64,000 nucleotides of DNA from Steromphala cineraria (Eukaryota; Mollusca; Gastropoda; Trochida; Trochidae), in NCBI GenBank assembly GCA_916613615.1, contig OU744720.1, positions 3,389,749 through 3,453,748 on the forward strand, written 5' to 3'. The notes under the pieces were generated by a model. The model saw nothing but the letters and a program-made list of their open reading frames with translations. It was not told the origin of the DNA and made no database searches. The translations under genes were made by a program, and so were the position numbers. Shown here in pieces: positions 12,572 to 60,500 of this stretch; the first letter of the stretch is position 1, and the number at the start of each line of letters is the position of its first letter.

Positions 12572-12619
12572 CCCCCCGGGAGTGTTATAGACATTGACAC
12601 CGAGATCAGCAAGGAGAAG
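12572..12619 (+). CDS. SDC: Syndecan exon A (16 codons, phase 0-0)
   Basis: Short exon after a pyrimidine-rich acceptor (cccttccag) and before donor gtaaga. Only one frame is open; it reads [16 protein letters not shown] and enters exon B in phase 0. This is the most N-terminal coding piece visible. It carries no signal peptide, so at least one further 5' exon must exist. Confidence 0.75.
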
Positions 12620-21600: not shown

Positions 21601-24600
21601 GCGAAGCAGTAAGAAACACTTCAAACAGGACCTAGTTATTCGATTAAAATTTGTAGGTGTTTCAAAATGTCGACAAGTTTCTGATATTGAAATTTTAAGT
21701 GTCGTCGCCAACATTTCTATATTGTAAACAGCAAGTCGCTGAGAGCAGATTGACAACGCGTGCGCGGAGGAATGTGAAGCGGTCGTAAATATTTAGAGGT
21801 GATTATCGGTGAAATAATTACTCCAAAATGTTTATGAGTAACCAATCAGAACGCAGTATTTTCAAACTAGTTTTCGTGTCATGTTAGAATTTCATATTTG
21901 TAGACGATCTCTGTATATCTAGTAAAGTGGGCTCATGCTCATAAATGCATTATAAAAACTCAAATAATGTTCATGTAGAATATGAACTTGCATTTATGTC
22001 CAATTCCTTTGTTCAGAAATTTAACTTTCCTGTAAAATGCGAGCTTGATGTACATGTAGACAAAAAAGTTTATTAAAAGCAAAAACATGCTATTCAGTTA
22101 AAGTGAATACACATTATAAGTAAGGTTAAATTACTTGCTAAAGTATTAATGATAGAAGCACTGCTAACATCAGATAGATAAAGAGAGAAACCAGTTGCAA
22201 AGACGATGTAACTGTACCTACTTAGCTCTGAAATCACTTGTGTAAACAATATAAGTAAAACAGATGCATCCATCATTACAGTGTTTATCACTCGCAGCTT
22301 GCGGCACCGGTCATTAAGTCCAAGATGGTTCTCTCCCAGGAATCAATAGCCAGGGCTGCATGCAAGTGACAAGCAATCCCTCCAAATAATGTCCTGTAAT
22401 GGCCTGCAAGGTCCATCCTGCCATGTCCTCCTGTACAGAAGGCAATTGACATTCTCGATATCGCTGGAGAATCTAGTTGACATTTTGGTTATCGACGGAG
22501 CATTCAGTTGACGTTCTTTATATCGCTGCTAAACAGCGGGGCTCCATCTCCTTCTAATGTGCTTCGCTCTCCGCAACTTCCTCTGGGATTTTCTCCTTTC
22601 TGATAATCTCTTTGTTTTATTGTCCTGCAGTGTGGGCTGATTCCTTGTCCTTCGTAATGTGTTTTCTGACAGTCCTTTGTTGTGATTGATGTTCAACTTG
22701 ATGAAATACTGCAATGGGCTGGAGAAATCCTTTCGTTGGAAGATTTTTTGTTTGGAAATATATTATGTATTCCTTTCATGACATATTCCCCATCTTACCC
22801 AGTAAGTTTCAGGACGTTGATAAATTCTCTAGAAATCAATATTTTGGAAGATCTTGTAATACATATTGTAGTTGATGTTTCAATAAACATGTAGATGTTG
22901 CACAGACAATCTCCGAGACATGGTATGATATATTGGAAAATGTAATTATAGTTTTTGAGCGGGTATGAAATTGTCTGTATTGAAACCTGGCAGATTTATG
23001 GCAGGAATGCAGAGTTTGAGTGTGCTATGGTAATATTTCTTTGCAGTAGAGAATGTCTAGTGTGTTTGTGAAGACGCCAGTTGGTGATTCAACCATTTAC
23101 CATCTGAAATAGAAAGGCAGTGGGGGTCAAATGAAGCTCATTCCTAAACCAACAAACTGTTTGCTCATCTTATGAGTAGAAAATGGTATGTTTATTATTG
23201 CAACATGGAAATTGGTAAATTCTCCTACATAGATCTAAGGAAAATATACATCAACTTATTTAATCATTTCATTTGTAGAACTGGCTTATCTATTGAAATT
23301 GCAAAAAGGTGCATGTTATCAGTGAAACAGAAATATTGACACTTCAGTTATTTATTTACTTCTCAGTGCTAATCTATGTTGCAAGTTGACAGCAATCACA
23401 ATTTCTAAATATGTAATCTACACATTTACAAAGCACACAATCTATGTTACAACACAAGCAAATGGATTGATATGAATATTGTTGATGGTTTCTGGTAATA
23501 TCCTCAACCATAAAGATAACCATAACGAAGCAGATAATTAGTCATTCTGTGATGTGTAGAAATAATAGGAAGAGATGGTGAGCAGAGCTGTCAGGATGTT
23601 AATTAAGATGTGTGTATTGATGGTGTTAATTAAGATGTGTGTATTGATGGTGTTAATTAAGATGTGTGTATTGATGGTGTTAATTAAGATGTGTGTATTG
23701 ATGGTGTTAATTAAGATGTGTGTATTGATGGTGTTAATAGCTTTGTGAATGGATAGACGCAGGCAACTCTGGTAGCCCGGACTACCATAAAGATAAGCAT
23801 TATGATTGCTTATATGAAGGAGATACAACTAGGTGGAGAATCAGGTGGTCATGGTTATGGATTTATTTGTAGGTTTGTCTATATTCCTCAGGATATTGTG
23901 TATCATGGTATCAATATGTTTACATTCTACAATATTCTATAGAGATATTGTTGTTCTTTCTTTGTCAAGTGATATTTTGGTGGCCATTTCACGTTCCATC
24001 AAAGTTTGATTGAATGTATAGCAAACCTGAAATATAAGTAATTGCTTATATCGAGGAGCTCGAGGATCAGGTGTGACAAATGTGCTCATGGTTATGGCTT
24101 TATTTGTAGGAAATTTGTCATAAAATTGTGTAATTGTTATTATTCTTATGTCATCATTGGTGATATTTTGGTGGCAATTTCATTTTCCAATTGAACTTTG
24201 ATTGAATGTATAGCAAACCTGAAACTTCCATTAAGTGAATTGAGAGCCTGTTGTGGTTGCTCATTGAACCAGTCATTCAGGAGTCCCGGTCGCTCCCCTC
24301 CCTGAGAAAAACAAAACAGGCCTGAGTAGTGTATTTCATTTATGACTCACAAATTATATCAATATTGCAAGGAATCACTGACCACATCACATTCACAGTG
24401 ATGACATAACAATCTAATTATTAACATTTCCGATTTATTAAACAGCTCCTCCTTAAACCGGCAAGTTATGAGTATATCTTTATGTTCTACTACAGGAGGG
24501 CAAGTTATGAGTATATCTTTATGTTCTACTACAGGAGGGCAAGTTATGAGTATATCTTTATGTTCTGCTACAGGAGGGCAAGTTATGAGTATATCTTTAT

Positions 24601-27600
24601 GTTCTACTACAGGAGGGCAAGTTATGAGTATATCTTTATGTTCTACTACAGGAGGGCAAGTTATGAGTATATCTTTATGTTCTACTTCAGGAGGGCAAGT
24701 TATGAGTATATCTTTATGTTCTACTACAGGAGGGCAAGTTATGAGTATATCTTTATGTTCTACTACAGGAGGGCAAGTTATGAGTATATCTTTATGTTCT
24801 ACTACAGGAGGGCAAGTTATGAGTATATCTTTATGTTCTACTTCAGGAGGGCAAGTTATGAGTATATCTTTATGTTCTACTATAGGAGGAGGTCACGGAG
24901 GAAGTCCCGGAAGAGAGTGGTTCTGGGAAGAGTGTAACCGAGGAGGATGATGACGATGATGAACTCGACAAATCCTCGGGATCCGGCAGCGGGGGATTCA
25001 ATACAGACAATGAAGGTGGGTATCTTGAGGTTGCGTTGTACATGTGGAACACCTTAGTTTAGAGAAAAGTTACTAATTAATCACAAATCAATCGGGACAG
25101 AATGTTAACAGAAATTGAGAGAGAACATAGAATCATAAATCCTTTGAAGTTCATCAGTTGAAATATTCAGCAGTTAATCTCAAAAGTAAAGATATTACTT
25201 GTCTTAATACAAAGGGTTGCTCTGTTCAGATTGAACACACAAGCAAAGTGGGCAAACTTTTCTAGCTTCTGTAAAATTTTACAGGATAGGATTGAAAAGT
25301 AATTGAAGTAGAAACTCTCATTACAAATGCTCTCAACACTGACCACGAAGGTTGATGCTTTGACAGATTTTACTTATGGATGCTAATTTTGCCGTCTTGA
25401 TGAAAAAAACCTCAAATTATTAAAGACAATTTTGAAAAGGAAATTAGAGAGAAACAAATGTTTAGATACTAATTAATTGAAATTATAAAAAGTAATATTC
25501 AAGATAACAGTTATCGGGAATATATTTTCAAGATGTATTTATCACCTATTACAAAATAATTTCTGGCTTTAAAGAAAAAAGATCTTTTTTAGCCTGGAAT
25601 CGATCATAGCCATTGAAATTGTCTGATCAGTGAGAATACAGAAGCATTGTGTGAGTGAAGATTAAGGTGCTAGACTGGAGATGAGTGAATCACCCACGGA
25701 GTCTGGTCACAATTCGGAGATTACCTGCCAGATTTAGATGCAAATTGTAGATAAGCTGGCTAGATTGAAACTGTTGAAGATATTAATTAATGCAAAGGTG
25801 ATAATCAAGTCTGGAAGAGATTGATGAAAGTCTCACGGACTGTTGTTTCTGGAGTTGTAATACCGTATCCTCGCGGGTATAAGACCAGGGGGCCCGGCAA
25901 ACAAATATCTTGAAAATAGGGGGGTGGGCTTTAACCCGCGAGAGACTCCAACCAAAAAAATCATTGATGCGAGTTGCATTGAAAATTGACATCGATACTT
26001 TTGACTATGTTGGTCAGGTCTTGTTAAACATCAATTGACACTTTTCAAGACGTATATTATTAAAAAGAATCATAAAGAAATTGCAAATGCTAACTTACAT
26101 TGTTTGTTGTTTGTTTTAATCAGATTACATGATATCATTCTCATGAAAAACGAACGTGAATAATCAGTCGACATCTTTTGCTGCATGTGTGTACGAGTAG
26201 AGAGATATTTGTTACAAGCCTTTTCATTGGCCCAGAAAAGTAGGTCAACCAATCAGCAAGTCGATTAGAAAACGATGTGTGAAACTGAAACGTGGTTGTA
26301 ATAAATTCATGACAACATATTGTCGATACAATATTAAATGTCTAAATATTCAAATATTTGTTAAATATTTTCGATATATTACATTTTCAAAAAAGAAACA
26401 TGCAGTTAATTGAAATATTTACGTAAATAAATTTCGAAGAAAAATTTGCAAAAATTATGAAAATGAACGTGAAAGAATATTGATAGTTATTTGTCGTCAA
26501 GAAATTACGATTGAGATTCCAAGTACTGTAAAACAACGTGCTTTCGCGAAAGTATATTTGACAAAGATTGCTTTGAACTTCGACGATTAAATATGATAAA
26601 TAAGTTTGGAAATATGTCATATAAAACATTTAGAATGGATAACAAGCCTCATAAAGCGTTAGTTCTTGATAATGTTTTGGGAATCAAATATTTCAATTCC
26701 CGATCGCTGATGCAAGTGAAGCCACATACGATACAGCATGATTTCTGCTGAAATTTAACAGTACGTGAATGATGCGTGAACAATATATTGTTATATTTTT
26801 ATTAATTTACAAATAGTCATTAAAACAACAACAACAGGACAATGTATTTTTATTTTACAAAAAATGACATCGATGTAAACTTGTGCATTTTGCTTCCGGT
26901 GTAAACATCGCTAACTCGATAGTCTGACATCGATCGTGTCACACATCCGAGAATTGGGGGGTGGGCTTTAAACCGAGAATGACCCCAAACTGCTCAACCC
27001 TGGGAAAATGGGGGATGGTCTTTAGCTCGAGGGTGGACTTATACCCGCGAGGATACGGTAGTGAGATTCAGGAACTGGACAGATTTGTGTCTGATATATA
27101 TACGATATCAAGTTCTCACCCTAACAGAGATTGCTCAAGTTATTTCTTACTTAATAAACTATGTAACAAGTCTAGGAATTATCTTCAGTCAGGCTGTCTA
27201 GAAATAAAGTACAAGATTTTAAGGATATCCAACTTCTTTATTCACAGAATAACATTGTTTTGATATTAATCCTTCTGCCATTTTCAAGCATGTCCATTAA
27301 ATCCAGTTATTTATGCAATCCGCAAAGTTGTTTCAAATCCAGCATTTGGAATGGTCTCATTATGTTTAAGAATCACACTGGAATTCCTTCACCTGTACTT
27401 TACAGGTAAATACTCAATAGAGTTGTTTATGATATTTATAAGAAGAATATAGGGACAGTGTCCATGCTGCAAATATTGATATAAGTTCGGTGTCCATATA
27501 AAAAAATTTCACAACTAAAAAAATTCAAAATAATTTCAACATATGGCCCATCTGTGATAGAGGTTACTGGGGAAGAACTGACACGAGAACCATCTGTGAG

Positions 27601-30600
27601 GGAGATATATAGTAAGCAACAGCTCTACCCCCTGGTATGAGCTCGACTATATTCACTCATGTGATGGGCATTTCATATTTCTCAACTGTCATAAGCAAGG
27701 TTTAGTCTTTATTAATAGCATTTCCAGTTCTGCATAAGGTTCTGCAGAGATCCTTGATGAATTTAACATTTTCTAAACACTATAAATACTGAGCTTTTCG
27801 AAGAAAAGCATTATGATATGAAATTTCTATTTTTATGTCCCCGAATCGGAGATTCCGAGGGTATATTGTTTTTCACCTGTCCGTCTGTCCGTCCGTCTGT
27901 CTGTCTGTCCGTCTGTCTGTCTGTCCGTCTGTCTGTCCATTTGTCCACAAAAACTTTAACCTTGGTCATAACTTTTGATTGGTCGGAGCTAGGTCTTTGA
28001 TACTTGACATATGCATTCGTGTTTCACAAACACATCTTGTTTTCTATGGGGATGTACAAAATTGAATTTTAACAGCATTTTCAATTTAGTTTGGTTCATA
28101 TTGATGTTTTAAAACCTTGAAAAACTAAAAAATGCAAACCTCATAGCATTCTAACAGATAATCAGATTAACAAAAATAAATTGATAAACATTTAATGGGC
28201 TTTCTGTATCAAACATCAAAGATTGAATGAAATGACTATGTAAGTAATAAAATAAAAAATATTTGAATCTTCACTATCCATGTATAATTTTACTTTTCAA
28301 TGCTCAATAAATTTACAAAAATCAATCTCATTTTAGTCCTGTACCTGTTGTTGATTACAAAAGATTGGTCAGGAAAGGAAAGTTGATGATTATATACTGC
28401 TTGCAGTCTAATTGCAATGTCTGATCGTGTATACTATATAAATCTATAATTAAATGAAACATCCTTGAAAGAACGCACTGTGTTTTATCTCTCAGATCAG
28501 GAATTGCATCCGTGAAAACCATTCTGATTCAGCGACCTTGCTTTGAGAGATTTTATTCCAAATCAACCTTACAAATGCTGAATTGATACCTGCAAAGTGT
28601 TTCTCAAGGCAAAACTATTTTTTCAGATGCTGTTTTTATGACCAGTTCAGTCAATTTTTGCTTTTCTGAAAGTGTCCTGTTTATCTTATCTAATCTTAAA
28701 TATACTCCAATTGTATGATTTGTTTTGAATTATTTGGATGGAGATATCCCAAAGTTGTACAAAAAGAACAAAACTGCATGATGAAGTGTCAATAAAATTT
28801 TTCTTTCTTTTGAACAGAAATTGTTTAAAATATTTGTTGATTTTAGAAATAAACTCAATTGAAACTTCAGAATGGAGTTTAATTAAGAAAATATGACAAA
28901 TTTATTCTTGATATATGAATGCCTTTACTTAAAATAATCACCAATAAATCTAGTTAAACTAAACTAGTATCATGGTTTCATACTCACAAAGTAGGGCTGT
29001 TTGCACCATCTGGCCTCAGTGCCTGGTGTGGCATTATTTAACAAAGAAACATCAAACATAATGGAAAGAGAATGACTTGTTTTAATAAACATGTCAAATA
29101 CATCTATGTACATTTGTATAGCAATAAATTTCTACCTTTCCCAATTTGAATTGAAACAATGACCTTGTGCTTGTTAAATGAGTTTATGAGTATTCGAAAA
29201 GTAATGATCATGTGATTGTGAATTCCCCTTTACATGCAGATAATGTAATATTCCAGTTTTTGAAGAAATTAACCTGGAACAGGTTAAGGCTAAAGAGTTG
29301 TACCAATATGATTAAAGATGTGTCACATTGGTGGATCCAGACAGGTGGGATGGGGTGTTGGTGCGGAGATTGCTCCCCTCCCAATAGTGTTCCAACTAAG
29401 GTATATGTTAAGAGTTCTAATTTAATCATATGAAAGAAATTGAATATTTTACATTCTCAATCTAGTAATTAAGCTAATTTACCTGTTTCCACATATAGTT
29501 TTATCCAAAGTATATCACTTTCATATAGTTGCACTAATGACACCCTTTCGGTGCACCCCTCCCAAAACCGCCCTGGATCTGCCCCCATGTCTCACGGTCC
29601 TGTGCAATGCTCATTGACCGATATCCGTAACAATGGGTGCAGCTGACAAAATCTACATTTCTGCCAAGTTGACAATTGGCTGTAGGTTAGCTTCCTAGTT
29701 TTGATGAGCAGCTCTTCCCACACAAAGCTATATGCGAGATGACACATTATATTAGTGACATTTGGTAATAACATACTTGTCTGGATGATTGCTACTTTAA
29801 AAACATGTAGTGAGGAGGGAAATGTTTGATAAGTGTTTTATGATTTTGTTGATTCAGCAATTAAATAATAAATAAATCATATTGCACCTACTCAAGGTGT
29901 CAAAGAGTAGATGAAATTATTCATTTCAAAATCCCCCTCCGCAAAAAATAAATTGTTAGATAGCATTTAGTTCTTTTAATATTTAAAGAAAAATGAATCA
30001 AATTTGACATTTTAATTTAATAAGTCGTCATGTAAAGTACCAATGATTAGAATGCAACGAGTGATTCCATGTCTTAATGATGGAGTGCTAAGATTTGAGG
30101 GTCCTGAAAACTCTTTTGGAAATTCTAAAGTTTAACATCACACAGTGAGTTGGTAACCAGTGAAGGCTGGCTGCATAGATCTAGGTGTGTTCTGTCGAGA
30201 TAGTGTGGGAATAGAGGGAGCTGCAAATGTCACGTAACACAGGTACGAGGAAGCGGTGAGATCACTTCCTGTCTGTCTGACATGTGCACACCGCTCGATT
30301 CTTGTCTAGATGTCTACGTATATCCAACTCTCAACAGATATAACATTTGTAAAGCTGAATTAGATCTGTCTTTGACTTACCATATAAACTGATTAGGGCT
30401 TGTTTTGATCATCTGACTTCTGACAGATATTCAATTAAAAACCTAAATTGGATGTGAAAATTATCATGGAATGTGTTTCTGGCGTTTGAGAGGTTTTTGT
30501 AAGAAAAAACATTTAAATGCTTGTTTTCAATTCAGCCCCATGTTTAGTGATACTTGAATCTATAAAAAAACATCTCAATGATAAAAACTAGTCAAAATGA

Positions 30601-33600
30601 AATGAAATATCTGTTACAAAACTTAACTTCATCTCATAATCCTCCTTTGTATGACATTTAAACTTGATATAAAAGATGGGATGTAGAAAGCAGTTCTGTA
30701 GGCATATCCATACTCTCAAGTGATTACATCAACCCAAGAGTGGAATAATCCAGCTTAGTGTAAATGTCTACAGGATATTACTTGATTAAATATCAAAGTT
30801 CAACTTTGTAACTGGAAACTATTCATGAATTGTACTAGACGTTGTCTTCAGTATATAGGGACTTCTCAGTCAAGTGTCCAACACCTATAACATTATTGGC
30901 AAGAGGGAAATGGATGGGTTCTACGATGAGGTACAGACTAACCCGACTATAAAGGTTATTGTGTCTGTTCAGGTACCTGACCTCATTTGACATTCGGGTT
31001 GACCTTTCATTGAGCTTCTATTTGGGTTGCGTATGTAATTCAAGTGACTTAAATCGTATTATGCATTCACAATTGAAATGAATTGATGTTTTCTAAGTTA
31101 GGTAGATGGATAAAACAAATCATTTAGTTAAGTCATGTTCATTGTATGTTCTGTTTGTATTATTGATTATTTATTGCCTTGTGAAACTCTCATATCTTAG
31201 TCTTTTAGACACGTTACTGTTTCATATCAATATTCTAAGTGTATAAGATTCCTGTTTGAGTAAAAACCATGGACCCAAGGTACAAACAAAACGACAACCT
31301 GTTACAGAGTCAACTTCTTCTGTTTCATGCATCCAAATTGAGCAAGATTTAGCACAAAAAATGTTATCAATATTTTTTATATTTCAAGATTGATGATCAA
31401 CTTTTTATTATAGAAAGTAGCAAAATTTTGGTATAGAGCCTTATTCTGTTTTCAAATGGGAAAATGAGAGTACATCAATTAACAATACTTTCTACAATAA
31501 AAAAGTTGATCATCCATAAAATTGCTTGTCTTCTTAATATTTAAAACTACTAAAATACCTCTCAAATAACTTTATTATATATATCATTTATTCACATCTG
31601 TTTGCCAGATGATGACTACTACATGTTTCTATACACAAATTCATCTAAATATATTATTCAATAATCTCTCTTAAGAACCTCTATTAACACAAGATTCAGA
31701 AATCTCTAAAGTGTATTTACGATTATGAAGGTCTAGCAATGGATATGTTGCATATTCTGACACAATCATATTAAGCAATCCAAATCTCTTTTAACTTCAG
31801 ATGACAAAAATAAAGTCCTATTGCATAAAAAAGCAATTCCCAAGAACTGCAGATGAAATCTCTAGGGTCTCGTTGCACTCAATTTTTTAGCTCGCACACT
31901 GGATATGTTGCTCATCATTACACGGTCTGTTCCTCAGAAACCCCCACGACTACGATGAAGACGTTGAAGGGATGTGCCAACCTGTACGAGTCCAGCAAGC
32001 ACCTCTTGGGCAACTTTGTGCCACAGTGTGATGAAAATGGTGACTACCTCCCCAAACAGTGCCGCGGCCACGCCAGCACCGGACGATGTTGGTGTGTCGA
32101 CAACCATGGAGCTGAGATTCCTGGAACCGCCGTCGAACCACCCAACGATCTCGACTGTGTCACAAGTAGGTTACCTCGTGTACTCATGGTTCACTGTTTA
32201 TGGTCAGGTTTCACAAAATGTTAAAGTACGTAAGGTAATCTTAGTGCAGTGATGAAGAACGACACTAAAGTGAAACTTATTCTTTTTGTGCAAGAACCCC
32301 CTTGTCATAAGCAGGATAATCCTCAACTTTTTTGTCTTGGCCTCCTTTCACAAGGCACCAATGTGATAAGAATGGGAGTTAAGGCTAACCTTAGTAAAGG
32401 TTACGTTATAGAGACCTAATGAAGCCTTGTTGCTATAAGGCATTGGACATACACCAGCATCTGCTTCAAAATGTTATGTTAACTTTCTAATCAACCTTGC
32501 AGACAAGAGCCTGTCGCAGTGCCTGTTCAAGGTGGTGGAGGCGGTACGACACCCCAAGAAGCTGCTGGGACAGTACAAGCCCAAGTGTAAGATCAACGGA
32601 GACTTCGAGCCCCGCCAGTGTCAAGGCTCCATGTGCTTCTGTGTCGACCGGGACGGCGTGCAACAGTACGGGACCGAGAAACCCAGTCACAAGGTGACTT
32701 CTGATATGTGCCAGGGTACGCTTTTATTGTTTATCACCAAACTAGTAATTCTGTCATATAGAACTGCATACCCAATAAATCAGCTGATATGTGCCAGGGT
32801 ATGTTTACTGTTTATCACCAAACTAGTAATTCTGTCATACAGAACTGCATACCCAGTCCATCAGCTGATATGTGCCAGGATACACCCTAAATTAAGTTTT
32901 GATGTGTACTAGTCAATCAGTCAGTGGTATGAAACTTCTTTCCTGTCATTTCATATAAATTTTGTTTTTCATTGAAGGGAGACACGTTAGAGCCGAGCAA
33001 TTTCAACTTCCATCCAATTCAGATATTTTATCAAACAGTTCATAAGTATGTCCTAATTCAGGTGTTTTTTTTTACTTTCCAGAGAAAGAACTTCCTGTAG
33101 TTCCTGATGAAGCTATCACAGTGCGTGTTGATAAGCCAGTAAAGAACACAAAACCAGTGCCCACAAAACCTGTCAATCCAGAGGTCAGTGTAATTAGATC
33201 TTCAGTGATTGAAATTTAATTGACTTACATGTATATAAAACATTTAATGCCATGACCTGTGAACCCAAGATCACTGTTATCAAAAAGAAGTAAATCTTTC
33301 TGCAAATATTTGAAATTTTTAATCATATCTTCCTTACTCAATTAACAATGTACGGTAACCTCAATATGGTGATACTGCACAGGATTAATCCGTCTAATAT
33401 TCTCTATTAAATTTCTAACAATGTTTACAACATTGAATTGTCTCTTTCTGATTAAAGGTATGGCTACCTCAAAAGATGAAACCTTATTATGTACACTCAA
33501 TTTCTACCAATGTTTGCAACATTAAATTGTCTCTTTCTGATTAAAGGTATGGCTACCTCAAAAGATGAAACCATCTTATGTTTACTACTCAATTTTTACC

Positions 33601-34827
33601 AATGTTTGAAACATTAAATTGTCTCGTTCTAATTAAAGGTATGGCTACCTCAAAAGATGAAACCATCTTATGTTTACTACTCAATTTCTACCAATGTTTG
33701 CAACGCTAAAATGTATCTTCTGGATTTAGATCTGATTAACTTATAAGATGCAACCATCTAGAAACCCTATTTATCTTTGCAGTACACTATTCCATCCAAG
33801 AATCCCACAGTTAAAGTTGAGGCACCGATCTCTCCAGATGAAGACGACAGTACAGAAGGTATCATCTGCTCACTGTCTTTATCAAAACTATTGAAATATT
33901 AATGAAAATTGAGAAGTAGACAGTTCTAAATGATTTATCTTTGCAATTGATAAAAAGGCATTTGCTGAAGTTTTCATACAGGTGAATTGTTTCAAATTTG
34001 TCTCAACTGAGATGAAATTGGTAATAGAAATATTATCTTAAATGTGACAGATTTTTTATTGGATTTAAGAAAAATGGCTGTAAAACAATTAAGAAATTCT
34101 TCATTTAAAAAAAGATGTTGACTATCTAAGGGTTTCCCTCATTCCTTCTTTCTTAGGCTTAATGTCCTACTATTCTACTCTTGTTCCCACAGATAAGACA
34201 AAGTCGCCCAACACTACAGGTGATGATGGGGACGCAGGCCCATTGAAGGAAGAAACTAAATTTGCTTCAGCGCCGATAATGACACAACCTGGGCTCCTTG
34301 CAGGTATTTTCTTTAAAAAATAATTGTAGATTTGTTATATAATTTTTTTTCTCAATGTGGTTGATTCAAGGCCATATTGTACTGTAGTAACTGAAAATGG
34401 ATGACTTTCAGGGTAACGTCTCCTTTATTGAGAAATAACGTTCGGAATCCATCCAGATGGAGAAAGATTGCCATTTCTTTATAGAGAAGTTTTCCAGAAA
34501 ACTTGCTGTTCTTATGTATGCAACACCTAACTGCCTAACTAATTTCCAGCCATTGAGGTCTTGCAATTATTAAGCTTTATTAAAATTAGCATGATTTCTT
34601 GATATATGCAAAATAATAATTTAGGTCATATCTAACCCAGTGACACTATCAATGTTTCAGCCATCATAGGTGGCGCTGTAGTTGGACTACTCTGTGCTAT
34701 TCTCCTGGTGATGTTCATTGTTTACCGCATGCGGAAAAAGGACGAGGGAAGTTATGCTTTGGACGAGCCAAGGAAAAAGTCAACATATTCACCGATCAAC
34801 CAGACAGACAAAGAGTACTATGCATAA
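12572..34827 (+). CDS. SDC: Syndecan with two thyroglobulin type-1 domains (5'-partial, 8 exons)
   Basis: Type I membrane heparan-sulfate proteoglycan. CDS join: 12572-12619, 24886-25015, 31938-32165, 32503-32715, 33083-33183, 33783-33858, 34193-34303, 34661-34827; 1074 nt, 357 residues plus TAA, all junctions GT-AG and in phase. Numbering from the first visible codon: acidic stretch with five Ser-Gly pairs at about 26-57; Tg type-1 domain 1 at 72-133 (Cys 72, 90, 101, 110, 112, 133); domain 2 at 142-205 (Cys 142, 164, 175, 180, 182, 205); Pro/Thr/Lys stalk 208-302 with an NTT sequon at 272; membrane span about 304-324 with GxxxG; C1 block [10 protein letters not shown] at 325-334; variable region; C-terminal EYYA. 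C1, span and tail are diagnostic of syndecans, which couple matrix ligands to the cytoskeleton and PDZ proteins such as syntenin. The Tg domains are not part of any syndecan I know. Signal-peptide exon not found; it probably lies upstream of the window. Family call very secure. Confidence 0.93.
12644..12673. repeat. Microsatellite (tactta/ttta type)
   Basis: Alternating ttactt and attt units just after the syndecan exon A donor. Confidence 0.8.
13481..13715. repeat. Direct duplication of about 100 bp
   Basis: 13481-13580 and 13617-13715 are identical apart from a one-base deletion; the 36-bp spacer contains a gtccgtccgttcgttcg stretch. Very recent duplication. Confidence 0.92.
14186..14225. 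repeat. 20-bp direct repeat, 2 copies
   Basis: Unit acgacatctcacagagtcta twice without spacer. Confidence 0.9.
14678..14754. mobile_element. Foldback element, copy 1
   Basis: Inverted arms, 30 bp each, nearly perfect (left agaagacaaggagtttatga; right its complement) around ttctataataaaga. Shares the core 'pair of arms containing agttgat-atccataaa' with 31392-31534 and 40686-40813. Confidence 0.7.
16559..17565. repeat. Minisatellite, about 40-bp unit, about 25 copies
   Basis: Unit resembles cctgcagtgtagatctgccg followed by gtgtag-caattctgt. On the minus strand it stays open for 210 codons ([16 protein letters not shown] repeats), but there is no sign of a gene around it; I read it as a chance open frame. 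In the first visible syndecan intron. Confidence 0.88.
17594..17667. repeat. 37-bp direct repeat, 2 copies
   Basis: Perfect tandem copy of a unit starting gagtgaaccccgggctggta. A 74-codon plus-strand open frame starting here has no recognisable content. Confidence 0.9.
18429..18670. mobile_element. 242-bp MITE, TA-flanked
   Basis: Ends are inverted repeats: TACTGTATTCGTCCTAATAA at left, and the right end reads as TACCGTAATCTTCCTAATAA on the complement (21 of 24 bases match including the following gcgc). The TACCGTA terminus resembles the element at 25861-27060. Confidence 0.75.
20859..21020. mobile_element. Long hairpin (about 75-bp arms)
   Basis: Arms 20859-20936 and 20941-21020 are near-perfect inverted copies (for example cattttggggttgtatgtcg against cgacatacaaccccaaaatg) around a loop of about 6 bp. 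Could be a foldback transposon or the end of a larger element; right flank up to 21860 is locally richer in CpG than its surroundings. Confidence 0.8.
22441..22535. repeat. Degenerate repeat, about 32-bp unit, 3 copies
   Basis: Motif agttgacattctcgatatcg recurs three times with substitutions. Confidence 0.6.
23595..23740. repeat. Minisatellite, 27-bp unit, 5 copies
   Basis: Unit ttaattaagatgtgtgtatt plus gatggtg, essentially perfect copies, suggesting recent expansion. Confidence 0.9.
24460..24885 (+). repeat. 39-bp minisatellite, 11 copies, ending at syndecan exon B acceptor
   Basis: Unit gcaagttatgagtatatctt then tatgttctactacaggagg. Copies start every 39 bp from 24460. Each unit contains an acceptor-like ttctactacag/g; the last, ttctactatag/g, is the exon B acceptor. 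In the exon B reading frame each unit has a TGA. Two other frames stay open only because 39 is divisible by three. Confidence 0.92.
24886..25015 (+). CDS. SDC: Syndecan exon B: acidic glycosaminoglycan attachment region
   Basis: Acceptor ctactatag, donor gtgggt; 43 codons plus one base (phase 0 in, phase 1 out). Encodes Glu/Asp-rich sequence with two Ser-Gly clusters, EESGSGK and SSGSGSGG, separated by an Asp run. Repeated Ser-Gly next to acidic residues is the classic heparan-sulfate addition context. The acceptor is the last unit of an 11-copy 39-bp minisatellite. Confidence 0.92.
25861..27060. mobile_element. 1.2 kb non-autonomous DNA transposon, TA-flanked
   Basis: Left end TACCGTATCCTCGCGGGTAT and right end the complement of the same; 26-bp inverted termini with one mismatch. 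The outermost TA may be the target duplication, as in Tc1/mariner-like insertions. Sub-terminal motif ggtgggcttta recurs near both ends (25923, 26959). No transposase seen. In syndecan intron between exons B and C. Confidence 0.85.
27833..28010. repeat. Dispersed repeat with gtctgtcc microsatellite
   Basis: Conserved-looking lead-in (tatgtccccgaatcggagat), a gtccgtctgtct microsatellite at about 27878-27947, then ccacaaaaactttaaccttg. Pattern resembles a common mollusc repeat; the peptide it encodes is a by-product of the microsatellite. Confidence 0.5.
29327..29588. mobile_element. Probable MITE
   Basis: Left end ggtggatccagacaggtggg and right end ccctggatctgccccc are loosely inverted, G-rich against C-rich. 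Boundaries approximate; no target duplication recognised. Confidence 0.4.
31392..31534. mobile_element. Foldback element, copy 2
   Basis: Left arm gatgatcaactttttattat (31392 onward), right arm ending near 31514; the right flank continues ccataaa and cttgtcttct, as in copy 1. Confidence 0.65.
31938..32165 (+). CDS. SDC: Syndecan exon C: thyroglobulin type-1 domain 1
   Basis: Acceptor tgttcctcag, donor gtaggt; 228 nt, phase 1-1. After a short Thr-rich linker it encodes a full Tg type-1 module: six cysteines, the QC pair (KQC), the signature CWCV, and a closing Cys (DLDC). Tg type-1 modules occur in thyroglobulin, testicans, nidogen, EpCAM and the invariant chain p41, and several inhibit cysteine cathepsins. 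One exon encodes exactly one module. Confidence 0.95.
32503..32715 (+). CDS. SDC: Syndecan exon D: thyroglobulin type-1 domain 2
   Basis: Acceptor aaccttgcag, donor gtacgc; 213 nt, phase 1-1. Second six-cysteine Tg type-1 module with RQC and CFCV (Phe in place of the usual Trp of CWCV), closing Cys in SDMC. The loop between Cys 3 and Cys 4 is shorter than in domain 1. The exon's 3' end and donor are tandemly copied into the following intron. Confidence 0.93.
32699..32885 (+). repeat. Triplicated exon D end and donor
   Basis: The segment gatatgtgccagggta, together with about 60 bp of intron (tttatcaccaaactagtaat...), occurs at 32703, about 32785 and, partly, about 32866. The first is the real exon D end; the second keeps a donor-like ggtatgt; the third reads ggatac and has lost the GT. 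Confidence 0.88.
33083..33183 (+). CDS. SDC: Syndecan exon E: stalk with KPV/PTK repeats
   Basis: Acceptor ttactttccag, donor gtcagt; phase 1 in, phase 0 out. Encodes 33 residues rich in Lys, Pro, Val and Thr with short KPV-type repetition, typical of an extended, possibly O-glycosylated juxtamembrane stalk. Joins in phase with both neighbours. Confidence 0.88.
33414..33725 (+). repeat. Tandem repeat, about 90-bp unit, 3 copies and a fragment
   Basis: In the intron between exons E and F. The motif ggtatggctacctcaaaaga starts at 33457, 33546 and 33638 (89- and 92-bp spacing); copies about 90% alike. Confidence 0.88.
33783..33858 (+). CDS. SDC: Syndecan exon F: acidic stalk
   Basis: Acceptor tctttgcag, donor gtatca; 25 codons plus one base (phase 0-1). 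Encodes a stalk segment ending in an acidic run (SPDEDDSTE) with no Ser-Gly pair. Joins in phase; compositionally plausible, no motif of its own. Confidence 0.85.
34193..34303 (+). CDS. SDC: Syndecan exon G: membrane-proximal stalk
   Basis: Acceptor gttcccacag, donor gtattt; 111 nt, phase 1-1. Encodes a Gly/Asp-rich stalk with one N-glycosylation sequon (NTT) and the residues leading into the membrane span (QPGLLA). In known syndecans this membrane-proximal stretch is where sheddases cut. Confidence 0.9.
34661..34827 (+). CDS. SDC: Syndecan exon H: membrane span and cytoplasmic tail, stop codon
   Basis: Acceptor aatgtttcag, phase 1 in, ends at TAA. Encodes a 21-residue membrane span starting IIGGAVVG (GxxxG, the syndecan dimer motif), then the invariant C1 block [10 protein letters not shown], a variable region [17 protein letters not shown], and C-terminal EYYA, a conservative variant of the usual EFYA PDZ ligand. 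This exon alone identifies the gene. Confidence 0.97.
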
Positions 34828-51500: not shown

Positions 51501-54500
51501 ATAGTAGGAAGCCATGATGAATCTGTATGTCATAGAAGGAAACCATGATGAATCTGTATGTCATAGAAGGAAACCATGATGAATCTGTATGTCATAGAAG
51601 GAAACCATGATGAATCTGTATGTCATAGTAGGAAGCCATGATGAATCTGTATGTCATAGTAGGAAGCCATGATGAATCTGTATGTCATAGTATGAAGCCA
51701 GAATAAATCTGTATGTCATAGAAGGAAACCATGATGAATCTGTATGTCATAGTAGGAAGCCATGATGAATCTGTATGTCATAGTATGAAGCCATGATGAA
51801 TCTGTATGTCATAGTATGAAGCCATGATGATTCTGTATGTCATAGTATGAAGCCAGAATAAATCTGTATGTCATAGTAGGAAGCCAGGATGAATCTGTAT
51901 GTCATAGTATGAAGCCAGGATGATTCTGTATGTCATAGTATGAAGCCAGGATAAATCTGTATGTCATAGAAGGAAGCCATGATGAATCTGTATGTAATAG
52001 TATGAAGCCAGAATAAATCTGTATGTCATAGTAGGAAGCCAGGATGAATCTGTATGTCATAGTATGAAGCCATGATGATTCTGTATGTCATAGTATGAAG
52101 CCAGGATAAATCTGTATGTCATAGTAGGAAGCCAGGATGAATCTGTATGTCATAGTATGAAGCCATGATGAATCTGTATGTCATAGTATGAAGCCATGAT
52201 GATTCTGTATGTCATAGTATGAAGCCAGAATAAATCTGTATGTCATAGTAGGAAGCCAGGATGAATCTGTATGTCATAGTATGAAGCCAGGATGATTCTG
52301 TATGTCATAGTATGAAGCCAGGATAAATCTGTATGTCATAGTATGAAGCCAGGATGAATCTGTATGTCATAGTATGAAACCAGGATAAATCTGTATGTCA
52401 TAGTATGAAACCAGGATGATTCTGTATGTCATAGTATGAAGCCAGGATGATTCTGTATGTCATAGTATGAAGCCAGGATAAATCTGTATGTCATAGTATG
52501 AAGCCAGGATAAATCTGTATGTCATAGTATGAAGCCAGGATGAATCTGTATGTCATAGTATGAAGCCATGATGAATCTGTATGTCATAGTATGAAGCCAT
52601 GATGATTCTGTATGTCATAGTATGAAGCCAGAATAAATCTGTATGTCATAGTAGGAAGCCAGGATGAATCTGTATGTCATAGTATGAAGCCAGGATGATT
52701 CTGTATGTCATAGTATGAAGCCAGGATAAATCTGTATGTCATAGAAGGAAGCCATGATGAATCTGTATGTAATAGTATGAAGCCAGGATGAATCTGTATG
52801 TCATAGTATGAAACCAGGATAAATCTGTATGTCATAGTAGGAAGCCAGGATAAATATGTATGTCATAGTATGAAGCCAGGATGAATCTGTATGTCATAGC
52901 AGGGAGCCAGGATAAATCTGTATGTCATAGTATGAAGCCAGGATAAATCTGTATGTCATAGTATGAAGCCAGGATGATTCTGTATGTCATAGTATGAAGC
53001 CAGGATGAATCTGTGTGTCATAGAAGGAAGCCATGATGAATCTGTATGTCATAGTAGGAAGCCAGGATAAATATGTATGTCATAGTATGAAGCCAGGATA
53101 AATCTGTATGTCATAGCAGGAAGCCAGGATGAATCTGTATGTCATAGTATGAAGCCAGGATAAATCTGTATGTCATAGTAGGAAGCCATGATGAATCTGT
53201 ATGTCATAGTAGGAAGCCATGATGAATCTGTATGTCATAGTAGGAAGCCATGATGAATCTGTATGTCATAGTAGGAAGCCATGGTGAATCTGTATGTCAT
53301 AGTAGGAAGCCATGATTAATCTGTATGTCATAGTATGAAGCCAGGATGATTCTGTATGTCATAGTATGAAGCCAGGATGAATCTGTGTGTCATAGAAGGA
53401 AGCCATGATGAATCTGTATGTCATAGTAGGAAGCCAGGATAAATATGTATGTCATAGCAGGAAGCCAGGATGAATCTGTATGTCATAGTAGGAAGCCAGG
53501 ATAAATATGTATGTCATAGTATGAAGCCAGGATAAATCTGTATGTCATAGCAGGAAGCCAGGATGAATCTGTATGTCATAGTATGAAGCCAGGATAAATC
53601 TGTATGTCATAGTAGGAAGCCATGATGAATCTGTATGTCATAGTAGGAAGCCATGATGATTCTGTATGTCATAGTTGGAAGCCAGGATAAATCTGTATAT
53701 CATAGTATGACACCAAGATAAATTTTGTATGCACACACCTGTTAGAGCCACAAAATGGCCCATTCCACACTTGATATCTGTAACTTTAGAAGCCGACTGT
53801 AGCTCGTTATGTCCAAAAAGAGTTCGAGGAATGTGCTCTGGTTGGTCCGAGGCTTCAAGATTAGGTCCTTTACCCAGGATACCGAACCCCCAGACAAACA
53901 CGTCACCAGCGTCTGAGAGAAAGATGATAAAAAATATCATTGGTATGATCAAACATATGCCATTTGATAGCCTATGAAATGCAACAAAATGAACCACAAA
54001 TCCTAGCTACATTATTTCTTAAATAGCAACACGGTCAAGATAAGTATGCTTATTACGATATCTTCTTTATCATTAAAGCCAATCCAAGGTTCAAGCTACC
54101 TACCATTGAGGACGGCACAGACTGAGCCCCCGACAGCTGATTGGACGATTTTGCCACACCGCTGTAGTGGGAGATGTCTTGGGACGGACACCTGGGCATG
54201 TTCTGTTACCATGGCGAGCTGGTTGTACTCAGAGTTACCCCATCCAAACACGTCACCTTTCTCTGGTGTTAAAACAGAGTAAAACAGATTTGGGTATTCC
54301 ATTAAAGGACATCCTCTTTAGTTTTCTGTCTGATAGAATTCTCTACAGAGCATTCTCTTTGTCATTTTTTTTTGTGGTACCACCAGTGGTATCAGGTATT
54401 TTTATCTAATCTTTAGGGAAACCCTTTCTAGATATGTAATGATTTTAGTCTTGATGAAAATAGGATATAACCTGACAAGAGGTATAGATAATAACAAATA

Positions 54501-57500
54501 CTCAGAGTTGTGAGTTGTAAACCTAACAAGTGTTACAAGTAAACAAGTCCAGTTACCTGACACAGCCAGCACACAGTCCGCAGAGGAGGAAAGGGAGATA
54601 ATCCTCTCTCCCTCGATGTCTCCTCTCACCAGGGTCGGGCTCGACACATTCTTGTAGGTCTCCAGTCCTGGAGCAAAGATTACAGCATTAAAGGGTTATC
54701 AATGTAAACCTAAAAATAAGGAAAGAAAGCCATGACTTTTCCCTTCCTTAAAATAATTAAAATCATAGCATGTAGTTGTGTTATGAAGATTTGGGCTGCA
54801 TGTGGGTAGAAGAATCTGTTCAATAATAACATAACTTTGTACAACATAACTGATCTTTGAAACCTGAATACGCAACAGAGGTAACACAAACCTACAAGGA
54901 CCAATGAAAGACAGACATTATTGTTCCCCTCCATGAAATAATAGAAATCCATTCAATATACAAGTATATCAGGTATCACATTGTGAAAGATCCTTCCAAC
55001 ATATGCCATGTCTTACACATAAACAGTGAATTAAGACACACCTGTCTGTCCGTCCGCTCCCAAACCACAACTGTACACCTGTCCGTCTTCCGTCAGAAAC
55101 ATTGTGTGGTCCTGCCCACACACAACCTGTAACATGGCATTTTATAATAAAAATTTATTTTATCAATAAAGAATTTATCAGTATAAATGTTGAATCCAAA
55201 AAAGATCTCTAACAGCATTAGTAAACTGACCCCTAATCTTTATATTCTATTACAGTGAATATCTGTTAATCAGGTTAGCTTTCCAGTGTACCACTCAATA
55301 TATGAAGCTCAAGTCCTTTCTATGTTCTGAAGATATATGTTGCAGAGGTGGTACGGAAGCATATGGGCCTACAGCAAAGCTTGTAGCTTCACACTTAAGA
55401 CTGTCAGGAGTGTAACACCTCTCACCTGTGAAACATTGTCTGGCAGACCGAGGACGCGGTTGATGGTCGGGTTGTGTGCGTAGACTTCATCCTCCACCAT
55501 CGCTCTCCCACACTGACCACTCGAGTTGTTGCCTAGGCTAAACACTGGAAGAGACATTGGGTCATAGATAATTAATTAGTAATGATACAAATAATAAGTA
55601 ATACAAATAAAGATGGAAACTCTTTCTGCGTGATGGCACAATGGCACAGTGCAGCACCTGTTTTATCCTTATAATGCTAAGCAACCTGTAAAGTAGCAAC
55701 ATCTCTTATTTTTCAAAGTCTTTTACCATGGTGCGGACCAGAATCAAACAGGGTCCGAGGTGAAGAGCTAACCTTTATCAACTGAGCTAATTCCCCAGAT
55801 GAACAGATATTTACCTTTATCCTATCAGTTATAATCTACATGTAAGAGTTTTTGATCCAGAAAGGAAAATTCTGGTGGTGTAGCCAGGCGTAGGTTTCCA
55901 AACAACTTCAAATTATTGTTTTGTGGATAAGACATTATGCTTTCATCTTTAGCATTGAGTATTTAATAAATGAACAGACAAAGGTAAGCATCCATAGAAT
56001 GTGTAGCGTAGAAAAAAAAAAAAGTTTAAGATTAGAACATAAATTGTTCAATTTCCCAAGGGCACATATAATATTTATGACATGAGCAATGGTTTCCACA
56101 GGAGATATCGCTTGTGAAAGATCAACTGATACCTCCTAGAGATTCTCTACATCTTTTTTCTTGAATACAGAGACAGTTGTCTCTTATGCTTTACTGAGAC
56201 TTGGCTAAACGGAGATATTAATAATTCATCATTGTCCCTAACTGGATTTGGCGAACCAATTAGAGCAGATAGAGATGTGAATTCTTCAGGAAAACTTCAT
56301 GGAGGCGGTTTGTGCATGTTTGTGAACACAAACTGGTGCAAGCAGTACGTCATACGAGAGACAATATGCAACCCGTACATCGAATTGCTTTCTGTGTCTT
56401 TCAGACCTTACTATTTGTCAAATATTTATTGTCCTTGTCTACATTCCGCCCAGCGCAAATGCTAAGACATCTTCAGAAACCATTTTCCAACACGTACAGA
56501 AACTAGAAAATATATCTCCAGAGGCCCCAAAATTTGTGCTTGGTGATTTTAATAAATGTTCTCTGAAATCTAATCTTCCAAACTATGAACAATATGTGGA
56601 TTGTCATACTAGAAGGAACAAAACCTTGGACCTTTGCTATGGTAACATCAAAGGCGCCTACAAAGCCGTTGACAAGCCACCACTTGGGTCTTTCGAACAT
56701 AATACAGTGCACCTCCTCCCATGCTACAAACAGAACATCAAGACAGGAAAGCCTGAAATAAAGACAATCAAGTCCTGGAACCCAGATTCTATCCAACAAC
56801 TACAAGGCTGTTTTGAGTGCACAGACTGGGATACACTGATGGCCAGGAGTTCCGACCCTGATCAGCTGACGGACACCATTACAAGTTATATAAACTTTTG
56901 TGTTGATTCTGTTATACCTACTAAAACTATCAAAATATTCCCCAACAATAAACCTTGGGTTACAAAAGATATGAAAAGCCTTCTAAACAAGAAGAAAAGA
57001 GCGTACTGTAAAGGGGACAAGCATTCAGAAAGATATTTCCTTGCAAATAAAGAAATGTAAAGATGAGTTTAAACGCAAAGTCGAGAAGGAGTTCTGCTGT
57101 GGTAATACACGGAAAATGTGGAATAGCTTAAAGACTATGACTCGAAGTGATAAAAAGAGGGAACAGATATATTCATCCAACGCTAAGTCTTTCGCTGAAG
57201 ACTTAAATTCATTCTATGCTAGATTTGATGATAAAGATTTTTCAAAGGATTTAAAACAGGAATTTGATTCTCCAGTCTTTATAAACACCTCCGCAAACGA
57301 CCTCAGTATTTGTGTAGACAATGTAAAATCATGTTTTACTAAAATCAATATTCGGAAAGCGTCAGGACCAGATCATTTACAAGGAATTGTTTTGAAGTCA
57401 TGTGCGGATCAACTCTCCCCGCTTTTTTGTAAGCTTTATCAGGCCTCTCTCGACGCCCATAGAATACCAAAGATATGGAAGACATCTACAGTGGTACCAG

Positions 57501-60500
57501 TTCCGAAGCGATCAAGACCAAAGGAACTGAATGATTACAGACCCGTTTCACTTACATCAGTGGCCATGAAATGTTTCGAGAGATTAGTGCTTCCGTTTCT
57601 CCTGCAAAGCATAAATCATATTTTGGACCCATTACAGTTTGCGTATTGGGCAAAGCGTGGAGTGGAAGATGCCACTCTAACGTTGTTGAATAAACTGTAC
57701 AATCATCTTGAAACTCCAAAATCTTATGCCCGTGTATTATTTGTTGATTTCTCGTCGGCGTTTAATACAATTCAGCCTCATCTTCTTGTCCGTAAACTCA
57801 TGAACATGAGTGTCAACCCATCCATTATTAAGTGACTTTCTTACCAATAGGACACAGTCTGTCCGTGTGAATAACTGTCACTCCTCAACTATTACCATCA
57901 ATACCGGCGCCCCACAAGGATGCGTTCTGTCACCAGTGCTGTTTATCACATATACGAATGACTGTGTTGCACATAATCAAAATTGTTCAATTGTGAAATT
58001 TGCTGATGATGCTGCTCTTATTGCTCTATTGAATGATAATTCTTCTGAAGATCAATATCGATCAGATATTTCAAATCTATCAGATTGGTGCCAGGATAAT
58101 TTTCTTCATATTAATGTGAACAAAACAAAGGAAATGGTTTTTGATTTCAGAATGGGGAGAAAGCAGTTAGAACCCATCAAAATAAGTGATACTCCTGTAG
58201 AAAGTGTGCCAGAATACAAGTACCTTGGTACTATAATCGATAACAAATTGAACTGGAATAACAATACACAAGCTCTGTACAGGAAGTGCCAACAGTGACT
58301 ATATTTCATGAGGAAATTGAAATCATTTGATGTTGATGTGAAATTAATGAAAGTTTTCTACACATGTTTTGTTCAAAGCGTTTTATCATTTAGCATGCAA
58401 TGTTGGTACGGCTCTCTTAGTCTTCAAGATAAAAACAAATTAATCAAAATTGTAAATATAAGTTCAAAAATTGCTGGTACCATTTTAGATCACCCGGCGT
58501 CCATAAATGACGACAAAGTATTATCACACGCTCGAAAGATTATTTCAGATCCATCACATGTCCTGCACTCAGAATATTCACTTTTGCCATCCGGTAAACG
58601 GTTTAATATGCCTTTCCACAGATCTAACAGAACTAAGAAGTCATTCGTACCTTCAAGTATTTCACTTCTCAACAAAATGTCAGATAAACATTGACTGTGC
58701 TCCTTATTATATCCCTGAAGGCCTCAAATTACGTGTATTTACGTGAATGTGTGTGTGTGTATTTTATGTAAATAGACTTTTTATTAATATTTAACTTATT
58801 ATATAAATGTCCATATGTATTTCATGCCATGAGCTCTATTTGATTCAAGAAGAATTCCCTTTTGGGTAATAAAGTGTTATCTTATCTTATCTTATCTTAA
58901 CATACAACAACTACCAATAAGAGGTAACACCATAATCCTGCTCACCCCCCTCTTTATCTGTCAATACCACAGTGTGAGCTCTTCCACAGGCCAGGTGCTG
59001 CACCCTGGTGGAGTCTGGCGACATCAACGGGAGGGAAATCGGCACTGGTTCCACAATAATGTCCAGGACACGACCTGGACCAACAAAACAACATTTATTG
59101 CCTACATTCAAGAGAAAACAACAAGTTGTACCTTCAAAAATTACACTCGGCTTCAATGTCAAATTAGATAAATAATCAACTAATTCTGTAAAGTATTCAC
59201 TTTCACCAGTTTTGAAATGGTGGATTAACTTTTCCTAATAGAAGTTAAATTCAAAATTCAAAATAATGTAGTTCTTCTTGTCTTTCACCTACGAAAGCTG
59301 CAACTATTCACTACCAAAGCCGCTAGGATGATCATTAAGTAGTTTTCTAACGTACCGGAACCGCGAGGGTACTCATGATAGCCAATCTGTGAGTCTGTGT
59401 TAATTCCTGTACCCATCAGCTTGTATCCTTTGGGAGTACGTGCTGAGAATACGGTGAATCCGTATCCACACGCCAAGTTTTTTATCTGCAGGTATGAGAT
59501 TGTCAGTAGATTTAAATATCATATAACCACAGTCAAAAAGAATTATCCTACCTCATATAAGAATCTCGATCTCTGATTGGTTCACGTGACCCTTAACAAA
59601 TTCCCATATACACCTTCACCGAGGGAGAATAAATCCCTTATACCCCGCGAGTAAAGCGTGCTTCCACGTCAACCATTCAAAGTCACGTGATAAGGTCATA
59701 GGTCAACCAGTATGCCTTGACTCGGACCTTTGTTGTTGTTTTGAAATAAAGGTTTTGTTCACTTCTGATTGTGTTTTTAACAATAGTTTTAGACATTCGG
59801 TAAGATAAATTCGTTATCACATTGCATAGCGGGTTACATCGTATTTATTATTGGTTTGAAAGGTTTTATGCAACTCGCGTTCCGCTCGTTGCATAAAACC
59901 TTTCGCGGGAATAATAAATACCGATGTAACCCGCTATGCAATGTGATAACTTATAATATCCATAACATATTGTGAAATACAATATCATAGAAAAACTCTC
60001 CATAGAATACTAAGGGTCAACAAAATGATACAAAGACATATGAATCAAGGCTAAATGTTATAAGTAACATATATATTGATATTGACTTTGTTAATTAGAA
60101 TACAAATTGTGTTCACAACATGAGAAGCAACTACATTCCAAGATAGATAAATCCTCGTAAAGAATGATCATCAGTTTTAAGTATGGGTAGTGCATATTAT
60201 GCAGATTCCCTAAAAACAGACAGTGGCATTGAAAGAAATAACTGAAAATCCAATTTCTCATCAATTTCTCAATATAATTCTACATAGCACTGTAAAACTC
60301 ACCTTAACATTGTGTTCATCTGTGAACTTGAGTCGAGAGGGAGAGGCTTGTTTGGTCCGAACATCTTGTCCTTTCTTTGGCTTCAAGTACGTCCTCACCC
60401 CTATCAGAGGTGATGTAACAGACTTGGTGAATCATAGATAATTAACATTGTTATAAGGAATATGGAACAGGGGCAATTGCACATTCTTGGACAAATACTG

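Follow-up and report, generated by a model that had tools for sequence, protein, structure and literature searches.

The 64,000-nucleotide stretch of the Steromphala cineraria genome analyzed here (the window, C1:3389749-3453748) contains the 3′ part of a syndecan gene whose predicted ectodomain carries two thyroglobulin type-1 (Tg-1) domains, Tg-A and Tg-B. We consider it very probable that this is a mollusc syndecan with two Tg-1 domains encoded after the Ser-Gly exon and before the one for the transmembrane and cytoplasmic parts, and that the pair represents, in general terms, a tethered binding module. The step from such a module to the inhibition of cathepsins is not included in this judgment.

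Seven exons between 24886 and 34827 have GT/AG ends and join into one open frame in the genomic DNA, with the stop codon at 34827 and phases of 1, 1, 1, 0, 1 and 1 at the six junctions of exons 3-9 (Table 1). The junctions 25015-31938, 32165-32503 and 32715-33083, proposed in the original prediction, are all in phase within this frame. In a simple position-weight scan, splice sites were compared with the AG or GT sites around them. Exons 3, 4 and 5 exceeded the 90th percentile at both acceptor (24886, 31938, 32503) and donor (25015, 32165, 32715), and the acceptor at 34661 (1.58 vs 1.89) and the donor at 33858 (0.14 vs 0.46) stayed slightly below it. Analysis of the joined protein with Pfam placed PF00086 in exons 4 and 5 and PF01034 in exon 9, each above its cut-off, and returned no family besides these two. 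Both Tg-1 domains contain six cysteines and match PF00086 with the subtype 1A pattern, and no ectodomain cysteine was found outside the Tg pair in the exon translations. The syndecan call of the original prediction and its two six-cysteine modules (CWCV and CFCV) hold.

Table 1 Exons of the Steromphala cineraria syndecan gene (window positions unless marked C1).
Feature	Position	Strand	Content	Basis
Exon 1	C1:3351644, 38 kb upstream of window		Signal peptide	Signal-peptide scan
Exon 2	12572-12619	+	Phase 0-0, IDID motif	tblastn with Haliotis rufescens P0002, splice ends inspected
Exon 3	24886-25015	+	Acidic, Ser-Gly repeats, likely glycosaminoglycan attachment sites	
Exon 4	31938-32165	+	Tg-1 domain A (QC...CWCV), phase 1-1	PF00086, 68.5 bits (cut-off 20.6)
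Exon 5	32503-32715	+	Tg-1 domain B (QC...CFCV), phase 1-1	PF00086, 46.6 bits (cut-off 20.6)
Exon 6	33083-33183	+	Juxtamembrane linker	Frame and splice ends
Exon 7	33783-33858	+	Juxtamembrane linker	Frame and splice ends; weak donor score
Exon 8	34193-34303	+	Juxtamembrane linker ending IMTQPGLLA	Frame and splice ends; matches Haliotis
Exon 9	34661-34827	+	Transmembrane helix, C1 motif, EYYA C-terminus, stop	PF01034, 83.9 bits (cut-off 25.2)

To find the 5′ end of the coding sequence, we scanned the 100 kb upstream and the beginning of the window for a signal peptide that opens with ATG and runs up to a phase-0 donor. A single clear winner emerged at C1:3351644 (alignment score 73 vs 20 for the runner-up), and its bases were inspected; the best candidate for a first exon within the window reached a score of 9 and was rejected. 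As the signal-peptide exon lies 38 kb upstream of the window, the coding span extends over ~73 kb. By tblastn, exon 3 showed 65% identity to Haliotis rufescens over 37 columns and exon 9 showed 93% identity to Haliotis over 57 columns, and the stretch matching exon 2 is missing from one Haliotis asinina isoform.

Two repeats lie at the borders of these exons. A 39-bp repeat, present 11 times at 24460-24889, ends at the acceptor of exon 3, so that acceptor-like sequence such as TTCTACTACAG/GAGG occurs 11 times. The modelled start of exon 3 lies in the last copy, and the preceding in-frame codon is TAG; the array is a possible source of splicing variation. At 32701-32883, an 81-bp tandem repeat duplicates the 3′ end of the Tg-B exon, the last 13 bases of which are found at 32703, 32786 and 32867. 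The second copy retains a GT donor, use of which would lengthen the exon by 83 bases and cause a frameshift. At the C-terminus (34813-34827) the window protein reads EYYA, as do two Haliotis species and a chiton. Passages of a 2006 comparative survey describe EFYA as near-universal in Bilateria, with Ciona (EYYA) and fish syndecan-4 as exceptions (PMC1464127).

The protein combines a transmembrane segment and a C1/C2 tail with EYYA, a signal peptide, Ser-Gly repeats and orthology to molluscan syndecans. Its best homologues among the matches listed are molluscan syndecans, the closest being those of two abalones with 54-56% identity over 88-99% of the query, a similarity that points to a vetigastropod or a near relative. 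Scanning the genome with PF01034 yielded two places, the window locus with 85.8 bits and a locus on C5 with 39.7 bits. The latter was rejected as a second syndecan: its frame ends in KDVKEWYV, which we take to be a neurexin-like tail. The window gene is the only syndecan found in the 1.27-Gb genome; syndecan is single-copy in fly and worm.

The occurrence of the combination in other animals was followed in three homologue lists, comprising the best 120 of 1104 matches to the window protein, of 1247 matches to a profile of seven non-molluscan sequences, and of 887 matches in a tail search. Scoring in the profile search was confined to the candidates with the most shared words. The query of the tail search was a nemertean protein reduced to its membrane span and cytoplasmic tail, which gives Tg-bearing proteins no advantage. 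PF00086 and PF01034 were found together in 116 of the 120 homologues of the window protein and in 113 of the 120 profile matches; of the 120 proteins listed in the tail search, 22 have both and the other 98 PF01034 without PF00086. The pairing that the original prediction had suggested looking for is present in many database proteins of molluscs, annelids, nemerteans and Lingula. Flatworms, rotifers, bryozoans, deuterostomes and cnidarians lie outside the matches listed, which does not imply that Tg-1 is absent there.

We ran our own Tg-1 profile on 239 retrieved proteins and the window protein. A syndecan tail was present in 231, with two Tg-1 domains in 73 (window included), one in 59 and none in 99; the other nine had no tail. 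As the protein sets are the best rows of longer lists, these counts are no frequencies. Where an organism is named, the two-Tg proteins belong to molluscs (gastropods, bivalves, cephalopods and a chiton), the one-Tg proteins to Lingula, Capitella, Owenia, Paralvinella, Ridgeia, Lineus and Tubulanus, with Batillaria P0056 and Tegillarca P0108 as molluscan exceptions, and the ten zero-Tg proteins all to arthropods. Phyla were assigned from the organism names, which many of the retrieved proteins lack. Ectodomain cysteines in the 99 Tg-less syndecans numbered zero in 96, one in two and two in one. The earlier statement that known syndecan ectodomains are without folded domains holds for well-studied animals, whose syndecans are not known to have a folded domain outside the cell, but fails for molluscs, annelids, nemerteans and Lingula.

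Some retrieved proteins deserve separate mention. P0021 (381 amino acids) and P0070 (331 amino acids) occupy 95% and 84% of contigs of 1,211 and 1,192 bases, respectively; these contigs resemble spliced transcripts, from which we infer an RNA origin. In the predicted proteins P0108 and P0056, Tg-A is absent and the sole Tg-1 is of the B type by sequence, that of P0108 being identical to Tg-B of Tegillarca P0069. This would be consistent with one Tg exon having been skipped. P0143 and P0144 are Tg-less syndecans with tails 84% identical to that of a nemertean; they could stem from the same branch and have lost, skipped or never had Tg-1.

In a comparison of 19 molluscs, conservation within the ectodomain is highest in the Tg-1 domains, with a mean pairwise identity of 43-44% vs 11-25% elsewhere. 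A tree was calculated from 59 Tg-1 domains, none of them from a SMOC, and 62 columns. A branch with support 97/92 keeps the molluscan Tg-B domains together, and the window domains group with their abalone counterparts (A, 96/94; B, 97/83). Molluscan Tg-A rows need two changes and stand on one side in 40% of the bootstrap trees. The single-Tg rows are scattered, and 62 columns neither assign the single Tg-1 of other phyla to one of the molluscan domains nor fix the deeper branching order. The simplest reading is one Tg-1 in the common ancestor and two in molluscs. The spacing from QC to CxC is 8 residues in 47 of 73 Tg-A domains, 4 in 67 of 73 Tg-B domains and 6 in 44 of 59 single domains. The net charges of Tg-A and Tg-B are −5 and +4 in the window protein, with medians of −1 and 0 over the 73 proteins. 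The idea of a clearly basic, heparin-binding Tg pair was rejected for these near-zero medians, in spite of the positive window Tg-B.

In the AlphaFold prediction, the Tg-1 pair is modelled with confidence but the linkers are not. For the modelled exon 4 product (Tg-A), the closest folds were saxiphilin, thyroglobulin and the p41 fragment, and saxiphilin and p41 (Z 9-10) ranked above the EpCAM/TROP2 match. Tg-B matched thyroglobulin, saxiphilin and p41 by sequence, and the tick thyropin 8r6t weakly. The PDB comparison listed no SMOC or testican Tg-1, which is evidence in neither direction.

Most likely, the Tg-1 pair acts as a surface-tethered protein-binding module. The protein is very probably a type I membrane proteoglycan in the order signal peptide, acidic Ser-Gly segment, Tg-A, Tg-B, disordered linker, transmembrane helix and syndecan tail. 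Its glycosaminoglycan chains would concentrate ligands, and the Tg-1 pair would capture one particular protein partner in cis, either at the cell surface or once the ectodomain has been shed. By analogy, cysteine cathepsins are our leading, though tentative, guess for this partner, with a thyropin-like inhibition that may be tuned by the protein's own glycosaminoglycans. According to the study on tick IrThy, a protein of two Tg-1 domains and little else, it acts as an inhibitor of cathepsins V, K and L; in the presence of glycosaminoglycans its effect was stronger on V, weaker on K and almost the same on L (PMC10889554).

Several observations weigh against this assignment or parts of it. The fold is common to thyroglobulin, IGFBPs and TROP2 and thus shows no function. 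The spacing in Tg-A and Tg-B departs from the six residues aligned in saxiphilin domain 1, which could weaken or abolish cathepsin binding, and the charge of the pair gives no clear support for heparin binding. Comparing the window protein with Haliotis rufescens alone, identity in the N-terminal part (68%) and the Ser-Gly exon (56%) exceeds that of Tg-B (48%), with Tg-A at 65% and the linker at 23%, so that it is the wider set that carries the case for conservation. Moreover, the gene model was built from genomic DNA and homologous proteins. A model derived from genomic DNA would also suit an annotation artefact, with the Tg exons either forming part of a different gene or seldom included in the syndecan transcript. 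The absence of Tg-A from the predicted Batillaria P0056 and Tegillarca P0108 proteins fits this as well, and phase 1-1 exons can be skipped cleanly; the frame here stays open when both Tg exons are omitted. However, P0056 and P0108 each keep one Tg-1, and chance joining is excluded because 116 of the 120 listed homologues carry both domains, among them proteins filling most of a short contig. Such proteins contradict the two outcomes named as refuting in the original prediction, a separate Tg gene, which we rejected, and the constant omission of both Tg exons from the syndecan mRNA. The occurrence of Tg-1 and syndecan in one chain in named gastropods, bivalves, cephalopods and a chiton (normally with two Tg-1 domains) and in Lingula, annelids and nemerteans (with one) shows that the joining is no artefact, and we regard this explanation as extremely improbable.

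Other partners may be considered for a tethered Tg-1 pair. In a SMOC-like growth-factor module, Tg-1 would bind BMP-type ligands, and one chain would unite glypican and SMOC as a co-receptor. In passages on Caenorhabditis elegans SMOC-1, BMP is bound through residues of the TY (Tg-1) domain, and SMOC links BMP to glypican, a heparan sulfate proteoglycan (PMC10464977); Tg-1 pair and proteoglycan tail are fused in one chain here. On the other hand, the same passages state that the whole protein is needed for full BMP interaction and that glypican is bound via the EC domain (PMC10464977), a domain which Pfam did not find in the window protein; we consider this reading unlikely. An EpCAM/TROP2-like adhesion or clustering module, in which the chief role of Tg-1 lies in how the membrane protein assembles in cis or trans, appears quite improbable, given that the window protein has no other Pfam family and no further ectodomain cysteine and that its fold matches to saxiphilin and p41 have the higher Z. 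Returning to the binding module in its widest form, syndecans of molluscs, annelids, nemerteans and brachiopods might be self-regulated membrane-tethered thyropins (or SMOC-like BMP binders) whose own chains tune Tg-1 in cis. The two molluscan domains, with spacings moved oppositely to 8 and 4, would then have two partner specificities, and the fusion would date back to the ancestor shared by these phyla and have persisted ever since. We think this generalization possible but doubtful; if true, a proteoglycan and an inhibitor, or a proteoglycan and SMOC, which are separate elsewhere, are fused in one chain.

Elsewhere in the window, an open frame on the minus strand (53641-54006) contains an RCC1 repeat (PF00415, 25.1 bits, cut-off 21.7) and is probably an exon of a neighbouring gene. 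Two overlapping plus-strand frames at 56987-58295 with reverse transcriptase pieces (PF00078, 48.1 and 56.7 bits) are retroelement remains.

Databases already annotate both domains in one protein, so the combination is not unseen. Titles and selected passages of literature pairing syndecan with thyroglobulin terms, mostly outside subscription journals, contained no description of Tg-1 in a syndecan, and neither did the syndecan passages of PMC4582122 and PMC5620054. Heparan sulfate proteoglycans of oyster phagocytes are described with tandem Ig domains (PMC7103635). The 2006 survey presents every syndecan as made up of an ectodomain that bears sites for glycosaminoglycans, a single transmembrane domain and a short tail, and the ectodomains as diverging quickly across the animal kingdom; its methods name one molluscan sequence, squid expressed sequence tags (Euprymna), among those 'including the cytoplasmic domains' (PMC1464127).

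In several phyla, then, the syndecan ectodomain holds a conserved folded module of a family that includes protease inhibitors and growth-factor binders. Such a module offers a concrete core-protein function for syndecans, which are taught as disordered glycosaminoglycan carriers. This natural fusion of a proteoglycan with Tg-1 could also reveal how glycosaminoglycans tune Tg-1 domains.

Among known systems, EpCAM and TROP2 differ in the cysteine-bearing N-terminal domain that precedes their one Tg-1 and is not present in the window protein. Testicans (SPOCK) are secreted proteoglycans with Tg-1 and further cysteine-bearing extracellular domains. They resemble the window protein as proteoglycans carrying Tg-1, but lack a syndecan tail, and their further domains were not found in the window protein by Pfam. 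Testican-1 is counted among the thyropins in a passage of PMC10889554. SMOCs likewise have one or two Tg-1 domains, acting, in the passages cited, beside heparan sulfate proteoglycans (PMC10464977); they are secreted and have EC domains, whereas the window protein has no EC match in Pfam but a transmembrane helix and a syndecan tail. The thyropins (Merops I31: p41 fragment, saxiphilin, equistatin and tick IrThy) share the Tg-1 fold, QC and C(W/F)CV, and saxiphilin and IrThy also the tandem of two Tg-1 domains. In contrast to these, the Tg-1 domains of the window protein are membrane-anchored in a proteoglycan, differ in QC-to-CxC spacing, and are putative inhibitors. Classical syndecans (PF01034) have the signal peptide, the acidic Ser-Gly segment, the single transmembrane helix, the C1 motif and the C-terminal EYYA in common with the window protein, which differs from them by two folded Tg-1 domains in its ectodomain.
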